A stretch of 46,061 nucleotides of DNA from Methanomicrobia archaeon (GCA_016930255.1 JAFGHB010000008.1:1-46061), one strand, 5' to 3'; counted from the first letter of the stretch, positions 10,136 through 27,107 are shown. Numbers and translations are program-made. The notes: generated by a model not told the origin, from the sequence alone.

Positions 10136-10242
10136 TATCTTGGAATCTGAGAAAACGGAGCTTTCTGGAAGAACGAGGTTTCTTAGTCGATGTCACTGGG
10201 AATATGCTCTATGCCCGAAATGCTTCATTCCGAGCGCAATAG
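10136..10242 (+). pseudogene. 3' remnant of a second FkbM-like gene
   Basis: In the frame starting at 10162 the sequence reads FLEERGFLVDVTGNMLYARN and ends at a stop at 10240-10242. This lines up with the C-terminus of the intact gene next door (RLLRDEGFVVSVEDNYIYAY). Upstream, a shifted frame near 10136 still reads LESEKTE against LESHHGYTE. It is therefore a diverged paralogous end, not a copy error. It abuts the flippase remnant on the opposite strand, tail to tail. Confidence 0.65.
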
Positions 10243-10412
10243 CGAGAGCCGCATTCCCAACCACCCACGCGACCCCGACGCCGATCAAGCCCATCCCCTA
10301 CGCGGCTCGCCCGGCATCAAACGGTACGGTAACGTCGCATCTGAGTGCTGATCGAAACAGGCACCAGAAATCAGGATAGATCCCCCGGCATGAGCTCTTT
10401 CTGCACCCGCTT
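10243..10412 (-). pseudogene. Flippase 3' remnant no. 1
   Basis: Read on the minus strand, one frame gives MGLIGVGVAWVVGNAAL, matching GVIGVGIAWVLGNGI near the C-terminus of the intact flippase at 13168-14439. A shifted upstream frame gives TLPYRLMPGE against LLGSYLLIQ. Bases 10385-10412 are identical over 28 bases to 13332-13359 in the intact gene. It shares an extra stretch (near gcatctgagtgctgatcga) with remnant no. 3 that the intact gene lacks, so nos. 1 and 3 come from a related paralogue. No function is left. Confidence 0.75.
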
Positions 10413-10582
10413 ATTCACGCACCAGCCAAAGTTCAATCTACGTCATGATCTTATCTCATATTCAATCTGCTTCATCCTCATGGTGATAAAGCTATAAACG
10501 GCGGCAGGTAGTGGGAAAAAAGCTTGAGAGGTATACAGCGCAAAACATCAAAGCCGTTTCCCGTGAATACACGCTTCTCTCC

Positions 10583-10828
10583 TCATTTATAAACTCTTTT
10601 CCTGTGCTCGAACTTATGTAAAATTATCAAATCATCCCTGATCTCGTAGAGCATCCTAAAAGGATGAAGTCTAATACTTCTAAATCCAGAAAGGTCGTAT
10701 CTCAATTGCTTTCCAATTTCAGGGTTATCTTTTAGCTTTTGAACGATCTTCTTTATTCTGTCTTGAATCTTCTTATCCTTCACCTTCTGCACATCTCTTT
10801 TGAACTCCTCGGTATAGATTACTCTCAT
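10583..10828 (-). CDS. RelE/ParE-family toxin
   Basis: This 81-residue basic protein has the family layout: MRVIYTEEFKRDVQKVKDKK, two helices, NPEIGKQLRYDLSGFRSIRL, then FRMLYEIRDDLIILHKFEHR ending KRVYK. The LSGFRSIRLHPFRMLYEI block is typical of RelE-type ribonucleases that cleave mRNA on the ribosome. It overlaps the antitoxin gene by 4 bases, giving coupled translation. It is one of three minus-strand toxin-antitoxin modules in this strip, each followed by a flippase 3' remnant. Confidence 0.88.
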   Translation of the reverse strand: MRVIYTEEFKRDVQKVKDKKIQDRIKKIVQKLKDNPEIGKQLRYDLSGFRSIRLHPFRMLYEIRDDLIILHKFEHRKRVYK

Positions 10829-11049
10829 TTCCAGATTTCATCAAGTTCATCAACATTTCTCAATTCGTAAACCCGGCCCTCTGCAATGTCCTTCTTAGAC
10901 CTTTTCAACCCTTCTATCAACTCTTTGTCATTCAATATTTCAATCGTCTCGATCACCGCTTCGAGCTCCTCTTTCAATTTGACCAAGGTATTGAAAGCAT
11001 CGGGACTTAAGGTTAATTCACCTTTCATGGTAGTTTTTATTTCAGCCAT
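10825..11049 (-). CDS. Antitoxin partner of the RelE-type toxin
   Basis: This 74-residue acidic protein begins MAEIKTTMKGELTLSPDAF and continues into a long helix (NTLVKLKEELEAVIETIEIL) and a C-terminal tail rich in acidic residues and aromatics (VYELRNVDELDEIW) of the kind that wraps around a RelE toxin. The family is unnamed to me; the role follows from order, overlap and size. It is the first gene of the pair, so it probably also binds the pair's promoter. Confidence 0.78.
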   Translation of the reverse strand: MAEIKTTMKGELTLSPDAFNTLVKLKEELEAVIETIEILNDKELIEGLKRSKKDIAEGRVYELRNVDELDEIWK

Positions 11050-11115
11050 TTTTCATTACCCGCTTTTATTCGCATCTGCACCACCACTAACTAAGAGTAA
11101 GTTACTTCTTAAACG

Positions 11116-11290
11116 TTAAAAAAGATGTCGTTGAGTATTCGCTCGTAGCACTACCAACCCCACACCACCCGCTACAAGCCCATTCCCCACCACCCATGCA
11201 ATCTCAACGCTGATCACTCCCCTGATCGCTCGGTATCAAAAGGTAACGGAGCACCAAGGTACGCGCGAAACAGCACTAGGAACCAGCGCT
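11116..11290 (-). pseudogene. Flippase 3' remnant no. 2
   Basis: On the minus strand the last open stretch reads GVISVEIAWVVGNGLVAGGV and continues through GLVV to a stop at 11116. This matches the intact flippase C-terminus (GVIGVGIAWVLGNGIVACGV). A shifted frame just upstream gives RYLLIP against SYLLIQ. About 50 codons of homology survive with at least one frameshift. It lies directly upstream of the RelBE-like module in the minus-strand reading direction. Confidence 0.78.
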
Positions 11291-11307
11291 CCAGGGGTAG
11301 GTATAGC

Positions 11308-11402
11308 TTATAGCTCCTCGAGCAGCTCCTTTATCATCTGTTCACCTTCGATTCACGCGTATTCGGCACGTTCTCCCTGTACGGCAGGCCCATGATCAAC
11401 AT
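11308..11402 (-). pseudogene. WecC (UDP-ManNAc dehydrogenase) C-domain fragment
   Basis: The minus strand reads MLIMGLPYRENVPNTRESKV, then after a one-base shift MIKELLEEL and a stop. UDP-sugar 6-dehydrogenases start their C-terminal domain with a very similar block (LGLxYRENVPDTRxSPV followed by IIxELxE). About 30 codons remain. WecC works right after WecB in making UDP-ManNAcA, and wecB is also present only as fragments in this window. The assignment rests on this one block. Confidence 0.6.
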
Positions 11403-11450
11403 CCTTTATCGTTGTCTTGACCTGCTCATTCCTGCTCACTCTGATTGAGC

Positions 11451-11681
11451 TTATCCGACAGCAGCTACCTCTACCTTTACCCTGCCAATGATAAACGCTT
11501 CTTCGGTCGGCATCTCTTCCTTTTCATCCCGTAAAGCCACGAGGTGCGCTTCTATTGCCTCCTTGATAGCGCTCATCGTCTCCTCAATCGTCTCGCCCTG
11601 AGAATAGCAGCCAGGCAGGGTAGGGACTTCGGCCCAAAAACCGCCTTCTTCCGCTTGATAAATCAATACCGTATATTCCAT
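11451..11681 (-). CDS. hicB: HicB antitoxin
   Basis: From the ATG at 11681 the protein has 76 residues; a GTG at 11693 is an alternative that adds four residues. The partial RNase H-like HicB fold is clear: MEYTVLIYQAEEGGFWAEVP, LPGCYSQGETIEETMSAIKE, AIEAHLVALRDEK. No separate DNA-binding domain is visible at the C-terminus, unlike longer HicB proteins. It follows hicA by about 20 bases on the same strand. HicB binds HicA and blocks its RNase activity. Confidence 0.9.
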   Translation of the reverse strand: MEYTVLIYQAEEGGFWAEVPTLPGCYSQGETIEETMSAIKEAIEAHLVALRDEKEEMPTEEAFIIGRVKVEVAAVG

Positions 11682-11700
11682 TCTCTCTCTCACTCACCCC

Positions 11701-11922
11701 CTATTTTAACAATTTCAGGAATTCCCCCTCGGTCAAGCCTGCTTTCTTTAGCGCCGCCTTAAGCAGGCCAATTTTAAGCTCCTTAGAGCGGGGCATCGTA
11801 ATAATTTGGCCATTTGGCATCTTCACGTTGACGTGGTCCCCTTTACCTCCCCTTTCAATGCCACCTGCTTTTACAAAGGCTTTTAGTGCTGCTTCCCCCT
11901 TTATCCCTCTGAGCCGACTCAA
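11701..11922 (-). CDS. hicA: HicA toxin, mRNA interferase
   Basis: This 73-residue protein has the dsRNA-binding-like HicA fold. The N-terminal MSRLRGIKGEAALKAFVKAG helix precedes the catalytic segment GGKGDHVNVKMPNG, in which His30 corresponds to the essential histidine of the GSH motif. The C-terminal IGLLKAALKKAGLTEGEFL helix is typical of the family. HicA cleaves mRNA and tmRNA in bacteria. Toxin before antitoxin is the normal order for this family. An AT-rich upstream region (about 11960-12050) probably contains the promoter. Confidence 0.9.
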   Translation of the reverse strand: MSRLRGIKGEAALKAFVKAGGIERGGKGDHVNVKMPNGQIITMPRSKELKIGLLKAALKKAGLTEGEFLKLLK

Positions 11923-12059
11923 TGCAGATCTCCTCCCGTCCTATTTGTCTCTTATTTGCTCTCACATCAGCCCGTCTCTTGTTCGATATTGTAATAATAT
12001 TGCCCCTACCTTAAATATCCTTGTGCCTTCACAATCCCTCATAATAAACTCCTTTCTCT

Positions 12060-12179
12060 TCAGCCTCTGGGCGGGGGGGGGTTATTGACTATTCCTCTCA
12101 CATCTCTGAGAAGGGGCGCATCGTTCATCATCTTTACCAAATCTTCCTCTTTCGTCTCTGTGAACTCGTTGTGCGCCAT
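12060..12179 (-). other. Short open frame of uncertain status
   Basis: A 39-codon frame from the ATG at 12179 reads MAHNEFTETKEEDLVKMMND and ends with a proline run encoded by a G/C homopolymer near 12066-12074. It follows directly on flippase remnant no. 3, in whose frame it is also open. The acidic helical character recalls small antitoxins, but there is no toxin partner. It may be a gene fragment. Confidence 0.25.
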
Positions 12180-12330
12180 TGCTGCAATGACCACCCACGC
12201 GATCCCCTCCTCACGCCGATCACGCCCCTCCCCTGGCTGCTCGCCCGGCATCAAGAGGTACAGTAACGCCGCATCTGAGTGCTGATCGAGCGAAAACGGC
12301 AGGCACCGGAAACCAGGATCGAGCACCGAT
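12180..12330 (-). pseudogene. Flippase 3' remnant no. 3
   Basis: The minus strand gives ALLYLLMPGE against LLGSYLLIQ of the intact flippase, then GVIGV and, after a frame change, GIAWVV against GIAWVL. It shares with remnant no. 1 a closely similar stretch of about 50 bases around gcatctgagtgctgatcga. It is placed just downstream, in the reading direction, of vapBC, so the order flippase - vapBC - flippase 3' remnant is clear. Confidence 0.7.
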
Positions 12331-12421
12331 CCCCGTTTTGCTACTCTATTGTGTCTCTTGACCCGTTTCAGGGTTGGATATAATGGCTGGCCTTAGGGGT
12401 TTATTCATGTCCCTCTCGCTC

Positions 12422-12838
12422 TCAGCACGTGACCACGTTAACATCTAACTGCTCGAAATGCTTGTCAAATGTATAAATCTCCTCGGCCCCTTTCTTTTTC
12501 ATCATAAGATAAGCAAGGGCATCATTAATACTAATTCGCTTCTCTTCTGCCAGTAAAACACTTTCTATGTACTGAGTATCGCTCACCTGCTCAACAATAA
12601 TATTGCTCTTAAGCACGAGATCCTTCACGAAGGAGATCGAAAAAGTCAGATTGGCGGCGTCCTCCATGACGTTTGCAACCTCGCTCAAGTGCACCACGGT
12701 TGTCAGTACTTCTTCACCCGCGTTTACACGCATGAAAATCTCTTTTGAGGCACTCTTTAGTCGCTGCTCTTCTTCGTTTAGTGCTCTCCTCGGTTTTAGC
12801 ACCGCGTAGATGAAAACGTTTGTATCTATGAACCTCAT
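12422..12838 (-). CDS. vapC: VapC toxin, PIN-domain ribonuclease
   Basis: This 138-residue PIN-domain protein begins MRFIDTNVFIYAVLK. The acidic residues expected to bind Mg2+ are present: Asp5 (IDTN), Glu53 (HLSEVANV), Asp106 (INDALAY) and Asp125 (IYTFDKHF). VapC toxins cleave tRNA or rRNA at specific sites. It overlaps vapB by 4 bases. The length matches archaeal VapC of the PF01850 type. Confidence 0.92.
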   Translation of the reverse strand: MRFIDTNVFIYAVLKPRRALNEEEQRLKSASKEIFMRVNAGEEVLTTVVHLSEVANVMEDAANLTFSISFVKDLVLKSNIIVEQVSDTQYIESVLLAEEKRISINDALAYLMMKKKGAEEIYTFDKHFEQLDVNVVTC

Positions 12839-13056
12839 TTCTTCCTCAGTTCCTTCCTCAGCTCGTGATAGTCATCAAACGTTCCAACCTCCACTTCTAC
12901 CGAATCCACATATTTTGACAAATCTACGTCCCGCGGGAAGATCTCAACCTTCTCCCCCCTCTCCACGACCACCATCTCGTCGTCCCCCCGTCGCCGCCAC
13001 GAAATGGGCAACACAATCCTTCCATGGGAATCTATCTTCTTTACTTCCACTTTCAT
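12835..13056 (-). CDS. vapB: VapB antitoxin, AbrB/SpoVT fold
   Basis: This 73-residue protein has the N-terminal swapped-hairpin DNA-binding fold: MKVEVKKIDSHGRIVLPISW, then VVVERGEKVEIFPRD. The C-terminal acidic part (VEVEVGTFDDYHELRKELRK) should bind VapC. The unusual IDSHGRIVLPISWRR replaces the more common DxxGRIxIPKxxR pattern but keeps the GRI-LP core. The upstream AT-rich segment at 13057-13105 probably holds its own operator. Confidence 0.88.
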   Translation of the reverse strand: MKVEVKKIDSHGRIVLPISWRRRGDDEMVVVERGEKVEIFPRDVDLSKYVDSVEVEVGTFDDYHELRKELRKK

Positions 13057-13167
13057 GCGTGATCACCAGTTTATCTATTAACTTCCCACTATTTAAACCT
13101 TGCTCCCGTCTGGCAAGGTCAAAGCTCCTTGCCATGTCTTATCCATCGCCTCATTCCCACCAATTCT

Positions 13168-14439
13168 TTAACCACGCCTGAACCCCTTCATCACTACCAA
13201 CCCCACACCACACGCCACAATCCCGTTTCCGAGCACCCACGCAATTCCAACGCCGATCACGCCCATACGCTGTATGAGCAGATAACTTCCCAGCAGGGTG
13301 AGCAGCGCCGTGCCGCCAGAAACCAAAATCACCGGCATGAGCTCTTTCTGCACCCGCTTTATCGTTGTGTATATGGTGTTTAACGCAACCGGAACGCTAC
13401 CGAGCGCTAAAATCGCTAAGACCTCGAACGAGTTCTGGACATACGCCTCGCCGAAGAGCCAGAGCACGTATCTCCCCAGCAGCACAATACCAATTATCGC
13501 CGCTCCAAGCAGCAGCGCGATAAATTTCACGGCTCTTCTTGTGTTGCGGCTCAGTTCTGCTCTGCTGTACGAACCTTCGGTCAGCAACGATTTCGCGGTG
13601 GCGCCTGGAATGACGAGCAATAAGCCCACAGTCGCCCAGGCAATGAAGAAATAGGCGTTCTTTTCCGGGCCTAAGATATTCACCACCAGGAGCGGCAGAA
13701 CCACGCCCGGAAGAGCCTCGAAGAGCCGCGCTATGTAGTTGCCCGCGGAGAACCGGAAAACGGCCGCGATCACGTCTCGGTTTATCCGTGGGCGCGGTTT
13801 GTAGCCTGATACCAGTCTCGAGGTCAAGAAAAGGCCTAATCCTACCGCAAGAACAGAGGTTACTCCGGACGCAGCGTAAATCCCCACCGCACCGTAGGCT
13901 ACCAGGAATGGAACCACACCAAGCCGGGCAAAGGTCACGACCGTTTGATACAGGGAATATTTGGTCGTTCGGAATCCTACAAAGACGCCCTGGCTCTGGA
14001 GTGCACCCAGCGGCGCTAGAACGGTGAAAACAATAAAGAGCAGCAGTAACGCCGTATGCTCTTTTATGATACGTAAGGACGGGCTCCAGAGTCCAAGTCC
14101 TGCAATGAAAATCACTGTCAACGCAAGTGCAACAAAAAACGAGATCGTGAGGCACGAGTTGATCAGTTCGTTCTTCTCCGCCCGTTCCGGTATGAACCGC
14201 ACCAGCGAGATATCGAAACCCAGCAGCGAGAGCGTCGAGATCAAGCCCATCGCTGCAATAAGAGCTGAGGCTAAGCCTACCGCCTCTGCGGAATAAAACC
14301 GTGCGGCGATGAGCCAGAAGAAGAAGCCCGAACCTGCGCTCGTTACCGATGAGAGCATCAAGAAATACGCGTTCTTGAAGAGCGGATCGCTCACGTGCTG
14401 CTTTACCTCTTCCCGGTTCTTCGGTAGCCAGATTCTCAT
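13168..14439 (-). CDS. Polysaccharide flippase (Wzx/MOP superfamily)
   Basis: This 423-residue protein has about 12 membrane spans. The N-terminus (SDPLFKNAYFLMLSSVTSAG followed by FFFWLIAARFY) and GLASALIAAMGLISTLSLLG are typical of archaeal O-antigen and teichoic-acid type flippases, which move lipid-linked oligosaccharides across the membrane. The C-terminus is GVIGVGIAWVLGNGIVACGV followed by a short basic tail. It is the only intact flippase here and would serve the glycan genes on both sides. Three decayed 3' ends of related flippase genes lie downstream, alternating with toxin-antitoxin modules. Confidence 0.9.
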   Translation of the reverse strand: MRIWLPKNREEVKQHVSDPLFKNAYFLMLSSVTSAGSGFFFWLIAARFYSAEAVGLASALIAAMGLISTLSLLGFDISLVRFIPERAEKNELINSCLTISFFVALALTVIFIAGLGLWSPSLRIIKEHTALLLLFIVFTVLAPLGALQSQGVFVGFRTTKYSLYQTVVTFARLGVVPFLVAYGAVGIYAASGVTSVLAVGLGLFLTSRLVSGYKPRPRINRDVIAAVFRFSAGNYIARLFEALPGVVLPLLVVNILGPEKNAYFFIAWATVGLLLVIPGATAKSLLTEGSYSRAELSRNTRRAVKFIALLLGAAIIGIVLLGRYVLWLFGEAYVQNSFEVLAILALGSVPVALNTIYTTIKRVQKELMPVILVSGGTALLTLLGSYLLIQRMGVIGVGIAWVLGNGIVACGVGLVVMKGFRRG

Positions 14440-14772: not shown

Positions 14773-15828
14773 TTATAGCGCGGCTTTGTACACCTCGAGC
14801 GTCCGCGCTGCGATTTTATCCCACGTGTAGTCGCGTTCGACCATCTTCCTTGATTCCGCACCCATCTTCGTCATGTCTCTGCGGAGCAGCTCCTGTATCG
14901 CCGCACCTAATTCGTTCACCGTAGTACCGCAGAGTATCCCGTTCCTGCGCACAAAATACTTGTTATCGCCGACGTCCGTAGCAATGACCGGCAGTCCCGA
15001 AGCCATCGCTTCGAGCAGTGCAATCGGCTGCGCTTCCAGCTTTGAGGGCAATAAGAACGCGTCAACGCTGCGATAAAAAGAAGGGGCATCTTCAACGTAC
15101 CCTAAAACTCGTATTCGGTCGTCCTCCAGCCGTTTCACCTTTGAATACAGCGGTCCGGCACCTGCGATCTTCAACCGGACGGTATCGATGTCCTGGGCCT
15201 TCACCGCCTTTATCATGTTTATAACGTTCTTCTCAGGCGATAATCGCCCGAGATAGCCTATACACACTTCACGGCCGTTACGTTCTCGTTCAGCTGAGTC
15301 CGCAGGGTAAAATCGAGTGGTATCCACACCATTTGGTATGACCACCAGGTCTGTTCTGTAGCTATTCTCACCGCTGGCATAGCCATAGCAATGCTGGCGA
15401 ATATACTCTGCAATCTCCACACTCACCGAGATGAACTTCTTCGACCGGCTGGTATACAGCATGGCGAGCATTGCTATCATCGTCTTCGCAAACTCGCCAC
15501 CTAAACCGTCTCCCGCCTGGATATGGAACGTATTGACGATGTTGACCTCAGAGCAAATGGTCGAGAACGGTAGGAAATATTCCGAGAACGTAGCCGCGTG
15601 GTGTATATGAAGTACATCGCAATCCGCAACCTCCTTCTTTATCTTCTTCAACGCGAAGTCGAACCCATAGGAAATGCCACCTGCGGAATTGCCCAGCATG
15701 TGCGAGCCGAGTGAAAATTGGTCTATTCGCTTGACCTCATGGCCTCGCTTCTCGAATTCGTGCGTGAGTGCCTCCACGTGCGTCTTTATGCCCCCGTTTA
15801 CCGTGCGATGGTAAAAAGCTATTTTCAT
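14773..15828 (-). CDS. Glycosyltransferase family 4
   Basis: This 351-residue protein begins MKIAFYHRTVNGGIKTHVEA. GT4 landmarks in order are DVLHIHHAATF, NTFHIQAGD, FISVSVEIAEYI, VVIPNGVDTTRFYP, IGYLGRLSPEKNV, LKIAGAGPLY and LEAQPIALLEAMASGLPVIA with the EX7E donor site. The C-terminal helix is WDKIAARTLEVYKAA. It faces the O-mannosyltransferase gene across an 88-base shared promoter region and could act on the same glycoprotein or lipid-linked substrates. Confidence 0.9.
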   Translation of the reverse strand: MKIAFYHRTVNGGIKTHVEALTHEFEKRGHEVKRIDQFSLGSHMLGNSAGGISYGFDFALKKIKKEVADCDVLHIHHAATFSEYFLPFSTICSEVNIVNTFHIQAGDGLGGEFAKTMIAMLAMLYTSRSKKFISVSVEIAEYIRQHCYGYASGENSYRTDLVVIPNGVDTTRFYPADSAERERNGREVCIGYLGRLSPEKNVINMIKAVKAQDIDTVRLKIAGAGPLYSKVKRLEDDRIRVLGYVEDAPSFYRSVDAFLLPSKLEAQPIALLEAMASGLPVIATDVGDNKYFVRRNGILCGTTVNELGAAIQELLRRDMTKMGAESRKMVERDYTWDKIAARTLEVYKAAL

Positions 15829-26808: not shown

Positions 26809-26912
26809 AAAATAAAGTGGCCATTATCAGTTTCGTTTGAAATCGTGACCACGGTTTTTATGGAACAACATTAAAAACATCGCAATAGTATCTATTAAAA
26901 AAGGGAGATGAG

Positions 26913-27107
26913 ATGAAATACAAGGTTGTGATCACTGAGGGCGAAGATGGTTGGTATGTCATCGAATGCCCGGCCATCCCTGGCTGTATATCCCAGGGTA
27001 AGACCGTTAAAGAAGCACTGGCGAATATAAAAGATGCAATTCAGGGCTGTCTCGAAGTGCTAAACGAGAGGATCGAGTTAAAAGACTCATCAAACTCGCG
27101 GGCTTAG
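26913..27107 (+). CDS. HicB-like solitary protein
   Basis: This 64-residue protein has the HicB partial RNase H fold: MKYKVVITEGEDGWYVIECP, AIPGCISQGKTVKEALANIK and AIQGCLEVLNER. A good SD (gggagatgag) precedes the ATG. No HicA frame is found on either side, so it is either an orphan antitoxin or a stand-alone member of the UPF0150 group. A mevalonate kinase remnant begins 46 bases downstream on the other strand. Confidence 0.85.
   Translation: MKYKVVITEGEDGWYVIECPAIPGCISQGKTVKEALANIKDAIQGCLEVLNERIELKDSSNSRA

Follow-up and report, generated by a model that had tools for sequence, protein, structure and literature searches.

A short strip on the minus strand of a 46,061-nucleotide stretch from a Methanomicrobia archaeon (GCA_016930255.1, JAFGHB010000008.1:1-46061; hereafter the window) is a stack of repeated units, each consisting of the 5'-truncated 3' end of a gene and a type II toxin–antitoxin (TA) module in the same orientation, with an intact flippase gene at the head of the stack (Table 1). 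The same layout recurs behind unrelated genes in related archaea, a site without the TA insert exists for one of these genes, and the truncated gene ends (tails) differ from the intact genes in the way that separate alleles do. To explain these stacks, we favor, with a probability of roughly 0.5, a homology-assisted acquisition of the 3' end of a foreign allele together with its TA module, in which one junction would be illegitimate and the insert would be retained by addiction.

The window comes from a methane-eating archaeon with a genome of 2.23 Mb, whose relatives are mainly Methanophagales (ANME-1) archaea (genomes, contigs and loci are denoted G, C and L below). In minus-strand order, the strip consists of the intact flippase, VapBC, a flippase tail (R1) fused to a tail of wecC, HicAB, a second wecC piece fused to a second flippase tail (R2), a RelBE/ParE pair and a third flippase tail (R3), and the spacers between the TA modules are thus tails of protein genes. 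The original prediction, which was made from the sequence alone, had all of these elements in place but recognized one wecC fragment, whereas wecC pieces flank HicAB on both sides. It also saw no recombinase, and behind its head gene the strip does contain only TA genes and remnants, although recombinases were not searched genome-wide. Full-length relatives of the intact flippase are 64% (G015) and 61% (G039) identical to it. The gene pairs of the strip are predicted type II TA modules: the toxins belong to known families, with PIN, HicA and ParE matches above the curated Pfam cut-offs, and HicB also matched Pfam, while the VapB-like and RelB-like open reading frames (ORFs) were unmatched, though their position and the conservation of the pairs fit an antitoxin role.

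The matches between the flippase tails and the intact gene are far above chance (Table 1). A genome search found no comparable flippase tail elsewhere in the window's own genome, and a dispersed repeat family is therefore ruled out. The feature common to R1, R2 and R3 is 5' truncation at approximately codons 359–372 of 423. A shared break just past GVIGVGIAWVLGNGI had been proposed, but the tails have no common 3' break point: R2 and R3 reach approximately the natural gene end, and only R1 is cut before it, being joined at TGGGTGGTCATTGC to the wecC tail (12194–12025). The observation that R1 and R3 share bases absent from the intact gene was confirmed, as the two tails agree with each other against that gene at 27 of 114 columns, compared with 6 and 12 columns for the two other patterns. 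They must therefore have a common source other than the present gene, and by our reading the same helix appears to be disrupted in each of them.

The wecC tail and the spacer to hicA are 83% identical to G027:C200, and the hicB–wecC junction has a homologous counterpart in G031:C168 (79% over 587 nt), so the wecC–HicAB–wecC block is either old or has travelled. An intact wecC of this type was not found in the window's own genome (best match 34%), which means that the wecC pieces probably came with HicAB. Of the modules in the strip, HicAB is the only one that is often tied to wecC in relatives. A fixed pairing of flippase and TA module was rejected, since in relatives RelBE is instead found behind an epimerase remnant or a wecC tail, and VapBC lies behind unrelated genes.

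The "intact gene – TA – gene tail – TA – gene tail" layout was found in other Methanophagales of several genera, behind wecC, epimerase, Gfo/Idh/MocA oxidoreductase, cofG, helicase and surface-protein genes. One locus (L101, G020:C9) is a full twin of the window stack with three different TA modules: an intact Gfo/Idh/MocA oxidoreductase gene is followed by a HEPN-nucleotidyltransferase pair, a tail, HicAB (with a disturbed hicA frame), a tail, a UPF0175-DUF3368 pair and a final tail. Four loci (L093, L089, L084 and L096) feature wecC or its tail, then HicAB (or hicB), then another wecC tail. At least five wecC tails alternate with HEPN-nucleotidyltransferase, VapBC-type and HicB modules in L106, while in L092 VapBC lies between two epimerase tails, and wecC, with a tail of its own and HicAB, comes next. 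Housekeeping genes are also affected, as shown by a cofG–VapBC–cofG tail arrangement (L131, G002:C52) and a helicase–HicBA–helicase tail arrangement (L229). In L224, a 97-bp repeat comprising a gene end, its stop codon and a terminator-like stretch brackets HicBA nearly to the base. According to Pfam, the cargo between tails is TA (PIN, HEPN-NTP_transf, HicAB, UPF0175-DUF3368), and in the cases read it lies on the same strand as the gene or tail. The independent stacks in L101, L093, L106 and L092 bear out the predicted repeated co-occurrence of TA modules and gene 3' ends, and the outcome is, as suggested, similar to that of tandem integration at the end of a gene. The supposition that the flippase end serves as a special landing site is not supported, because many unrelated genes show the same pattern. 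A fixed attachment point is also lacking.

Integrative elements at tRNA or guaA ends restore the gene end, and a recombinase acting in trans could likewise integrate each unit site-specifically at a gene 3' end. The restored gene end, the tail left behind and the tandem order all fit such a process. However, the units carry no recombinase and their target genes are many and unrelated, wecC tails begin anywhere between approximately codons 268 and 400 with no constant attachment core, and the flanking copies show divergence instead of forming short identical cores. We therefore regard site-specific integration as very improbable.

An empty and a filled version of one site could be compared. In the window's own genome (L172, G000:C5) the gatB 3' end lies ∼80 bp after cofG with no TA module, whereas in G002 VapBC and a cofG tail sit between cofG and gatB. 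As the same VapBC (91% over 692 bp, operon alone) is found elsewhere in G005:C27 while the G000 site is empty, the comparison indicates that the TA operon moved, and that the gene's tail is present a second time in the extra DNA past the operon. Together with the stacks in relatives, this empty site supports the predicted arrival of modules as cargo, although not at a site specific to flippases. The proposed comparison across strains was informative for cofG but not for the flippase strip, for which no empty or single-module state was found, as seven genomes of the same genus yielded no match to the flippase at E ≤1e-5. In G002 and G005 (L236, L240), relatives of the window glycosyltransferase (14773–15828) adjoin hemC, with neither a flippase nor a TA strip. 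A viral vehicle was also considered and rejected, as IMG/VR contained no relative of the flippase or VapC, and HicB matches there were only partial or weak.

If a gene had been duplicated in tandem, with or without its TA module, and the copies had then decayed in place while modules were replaced, direct repeats in one orientation would result, and the decay common to R1 and R3 could be explained. Neighboring modules nevertheless come from different TA families, and full-length tandem flippases decaying in place, which the original prediction had set against its own cargo reading, were not seen in 78 relatives. With the allele-like divergence described below, this makes tandem duplication improbable.

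Direct repeats were surveyed around PIN (PF01850) loci in five Methanophagales genomes, where a hit was defined as a direct repeat of ≥40 nt (E ≤1e-4) whose two copies lie on opposite sides of the toxin gene, each no more than 2.5 kb away. HicA loci were picked without reference to the window, glycosyltransferase loci in the same five genomes served as a control, and random positions were taken from 12 regions of two of these genomes. Flanking repeats were found at 15 of 37 PIN loci (14/36 leaving out the window) and 7 of 22 HicA loci, a TA total of 22/59, compared with 2/26 glycosyltransferase loci (apparently a single repeat shared by two related loci), none of 156 random positions and 2/23 PIN loci from three other archaeal genomes. 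The TA loci, with the window left out, differed from the glycosyltransferase loci (p = 0.008), as did PIN loci from those of other archaea (p = 0.015). Some counted repeats are intergenic (L152, L154, part of L149 and probably L219) or represent a gene start (L133 and L226), so the rate for gene tails is below these headline figures. The survey bears on whether the strip is an ordinary graveyard, in which gene debris and TA modules accumulate in a hypervariable glycan locus independently of each other and alternate by chance. Glycan loci are indeed variable and 5' gene fragments are common too, but this explanation is hard to reconcile with the low glycosyltransferase count or with the presence of the pattern at cofG and the helicase gene, and we consider it improbable as well.

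The distribution of mismatches over codon positions points to the origin of the tails. When 3' tails were compared with intact genes, mismatches fell 182:112:384 on the three positions (57% third), which is above the ceiling of ∼45% that we estimate for a tail that was copied and then decayed freely beside an intact gene under selection (p = 8e-10, although the pooled high-scoring segment pairs are not independent). Comparison of intact wecC genes with one another gave 68:50:176 (60% third), from which the tails are indistinguishable (p = 0.47). The window tails alone gave 7:1:12, six of the seven differences in the helicase tail are at third positions, and the oxidoreductase tail is 74% identical over 282 nt with zero indels. 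Because mismatches gather at third positions as they do between intact alleles, most of the divergence appears to predate truncation, with tail and intact gene stemming from different functional alleles. This resemblance to diverged functional alleles points to homologous recombination rather than site-specific landing.

The same data bear on insertion with a long target duplication, in which a TA module inserts, the tail of the target is duplicated during insertion and the copies later diverge. Such insertion has been described for restriction–modification (R-M) systems, and it would account for repeats of ∼50–330 bp around a bare TA operon, the empty site and the near-identical pair that brackets HicBA in L224. 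With the possible exception of L224, the codon-position test argues against a second copy derived from the target itself, given a third-position share close to that between alleles and above that of decay after copying, and a 74% identical tail without an indel, although a later swap of the intact gene for a foreign allele could mimic allele-like divergence. On balance, target duplication seems unlikely, but less so than the other alternatives.

Homologous import is favored because of the allele-like divergence of the tails and the same-strand placement of the TA modules. Incoming DNA from a related cell would carry a diverged allele of one of the host's genes, followed by a TA module. One end would recombine inside the shared gene, so that the resident gene stays whole but gains the incoming 3' end and its TA module. 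The other end would join illegitimately inside or just after the resident tail, displacing that tail and any earlier TA module downstream. Homologous recombination between the direct repeats would normally delete the insert, but the TA module presumably punishes its own loss, and the cargo would persist while the tails decay. Repeated rounds would build the stack, which the wecC–HicAB–wecC block of the window may have joined through further illegitimate joins.

Several observations weigh against this mechanism. Neither a donor molecule nor a hybrid crossover was observed, and no polymorphic population was encountered. The decay common to R1 and R3 suggests that one decayed tail was copied, and so at least one step would have copied an already broken tail. 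Flippase 5' fragments (codons 1–40 and 1–100) and wecC 5' fragments are also common in relatives, which means that debris is not restricted to 3' ends. Relatives match the cofG tail and the 3' end of the intact cofG about equally well, so neither can be picked out as the foreign copy, and the L224 copies are 97% identical, as expected of a true target duplication, which L224 could be. Alternatively, a dedicated Methanophagales route acting in trans could spread TA modules as cassettes of gene 3' end and TA to gene 3' ends genome-wide, using either a recombinase or a reverse transcriptase that copies 5'-truncated gene–TA read-through messages. We think this quite unlikely, but it would constitute an unnamed mobility class for addiction modules and a builder of TA islands.

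Table 1. Features of the flippase–TA strip in minus-strand order (window coordinates; ∼, approximate)
Feature	Position	Strand	Support
Intact flippase, polysaccharide exporter, 423 aa, head of stack	13168..14439	-	PF01943 (Polysacc_synt), E 8.6e-14
VapB-like antitoxin	12835..13056	-	No Pfam match; overlapping ORF upstream of PIN gene; pair conserved in G030, G059, G048, G029
VapC toxin, PIN domain	12422..12838	-	PF01850, E 6.6e-14
Flippase tail R1, ∼codons 360–402, fused to wecC tail	12190..12330 (start ∼)	-	80% over 134 nt to R3, E 2e-26
wecC (UDP-sugar dehydrogenase) tail, ∼codons 374–424, decayed	12025..12194	-	tblastn codons 375–408, 59%, E 1.5e-6
HicA toxin	11701..11922	-	PF07927, E 3.8e-11
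HicB antitoxin	11451..11693	-	PF15919, E 1.7e-11
wecC internal piece from ∼codon 311, GLPYRENVPNTRESK, fused to R2	11310..11405 (R2 end ∼)	-	tblastn codons 311–331, 67%
Flippase tail R2, ∼codon 371 to end, fused to wecC piece	11113..11310 (start ∼)	-	84% over 73 nt to intact gene, E 2e-15
RelB-like antitoxin	10825..11049	-	No Pfam match; overlaps toxin gene; pair conserved in G042, G041, G014
ParE/RelE-family toxin	10583..10828	-	PF05016, E 2.3e-12
Flippase tail R3, ∼codon 359 to end, last remnant, no TA behind	10190..10412	-	28/28 nt to intact gene; 80% over 134 nt to R1

Further features were recorded in the window and its relatives. The decayed wecC tail contains a run of C (12071–12080), and additional TA-like genes with HicB-like and RelE-like matches are present at 26907–27077 and 796–948 of the window. 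The flippase 5' fragments in L075–L091 (G020, G029, G039, G044 and others) often have no recognized adjoining TA module, and one lies within a 741-bp direct repeat of 98% identity (L087, G008:C194; 2838–3576 and 4601–5341). Upstream of cofG in L131 (6720–6800, G002:C52) is a dispersed repeat of ∼81 bp, which occurs some twenty times or more in G002 and is also numerous in G006. A repeat encoding approximately KALPKELYxFLAQVLSLERKC is found in or beside wecC genes, tails and intergenic stretches of several Methanophagales (L093, L102, L106 and L100). L120 (DYFG01000013.1, G031) was deposited as Candidatus Nitrosotalea, but this genome was placed in the family of the Methanophagales genomes and is probably mislabelled.

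The ANME-1 stacks represent a general accretion pattern for which no name was found, and which is best filed under transposase-free insertion of addiction modules. Integrative elements at gene 3' ends restore the gene end, leave a displaced tail and accrete in tandem; the stacks share these three features but differ in the lack of an integrase in the strip, the lack of a constant core and the many target genes. In homology-facilitated illegitimate recombination during natural transformation, one homologous and one illegitimate end import linked foreign DNA, and the same pairing of ends is proposed here, although it was not seen in action. Among the titles and passages searched, which left most subscription journals outside, we found no link between TA modules and this type of recombination and no description of TA stacks separated by the tails of one gene.

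The insertion of R-M systems, which has been described as producing long target duplications of variable length (Nobusato 2000; Furuta 2010; both cited in PMC3874152), is comparable in its addictive two-gene cargo, absence of a transposase, variable direct repeats of ∼100 bp and empty sites in relatives; long flanking direct repeats and an empty site in a relative (cofG–gatB) were both found here. The R-M cases differ in cargo, which is TA here, in that many modules are stacked here behind one gene with tails between them, and in that the copies here diverge as separate alleles and not as a duplicated target. In Microcystis, a ParDE-like module behind MaOC1 is fenced by identical 152-bp direct repeats (PMC7935541). 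This module also lies behind a gene with direct repeats on both sides, but it is single, and its repeats lie 14 bp past the stop codon of the gene and not within the tail.

TA modules move widely without transposases, and TA islands contain closely spaced modules of unlike families, with the cause of their clustering left open (Makarova, Wolf and Koonin 2009, PMC2701414). Our stacks resemble these islands in that nearby modules of unlike families are inexplicable by tandem duplication. Stacking by recombination with related versions of a gene may explain this pile-up, in which case the tails between modules would be a fossil record of each arrival, from which the allele of origin, the crossover position and any role of addiction in preventing excision at the repeats become testable. 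In contrast to the islands described previously (PMC2701414), the modules here are parted by the tails of one gene, which suggests a route by which such islands form.

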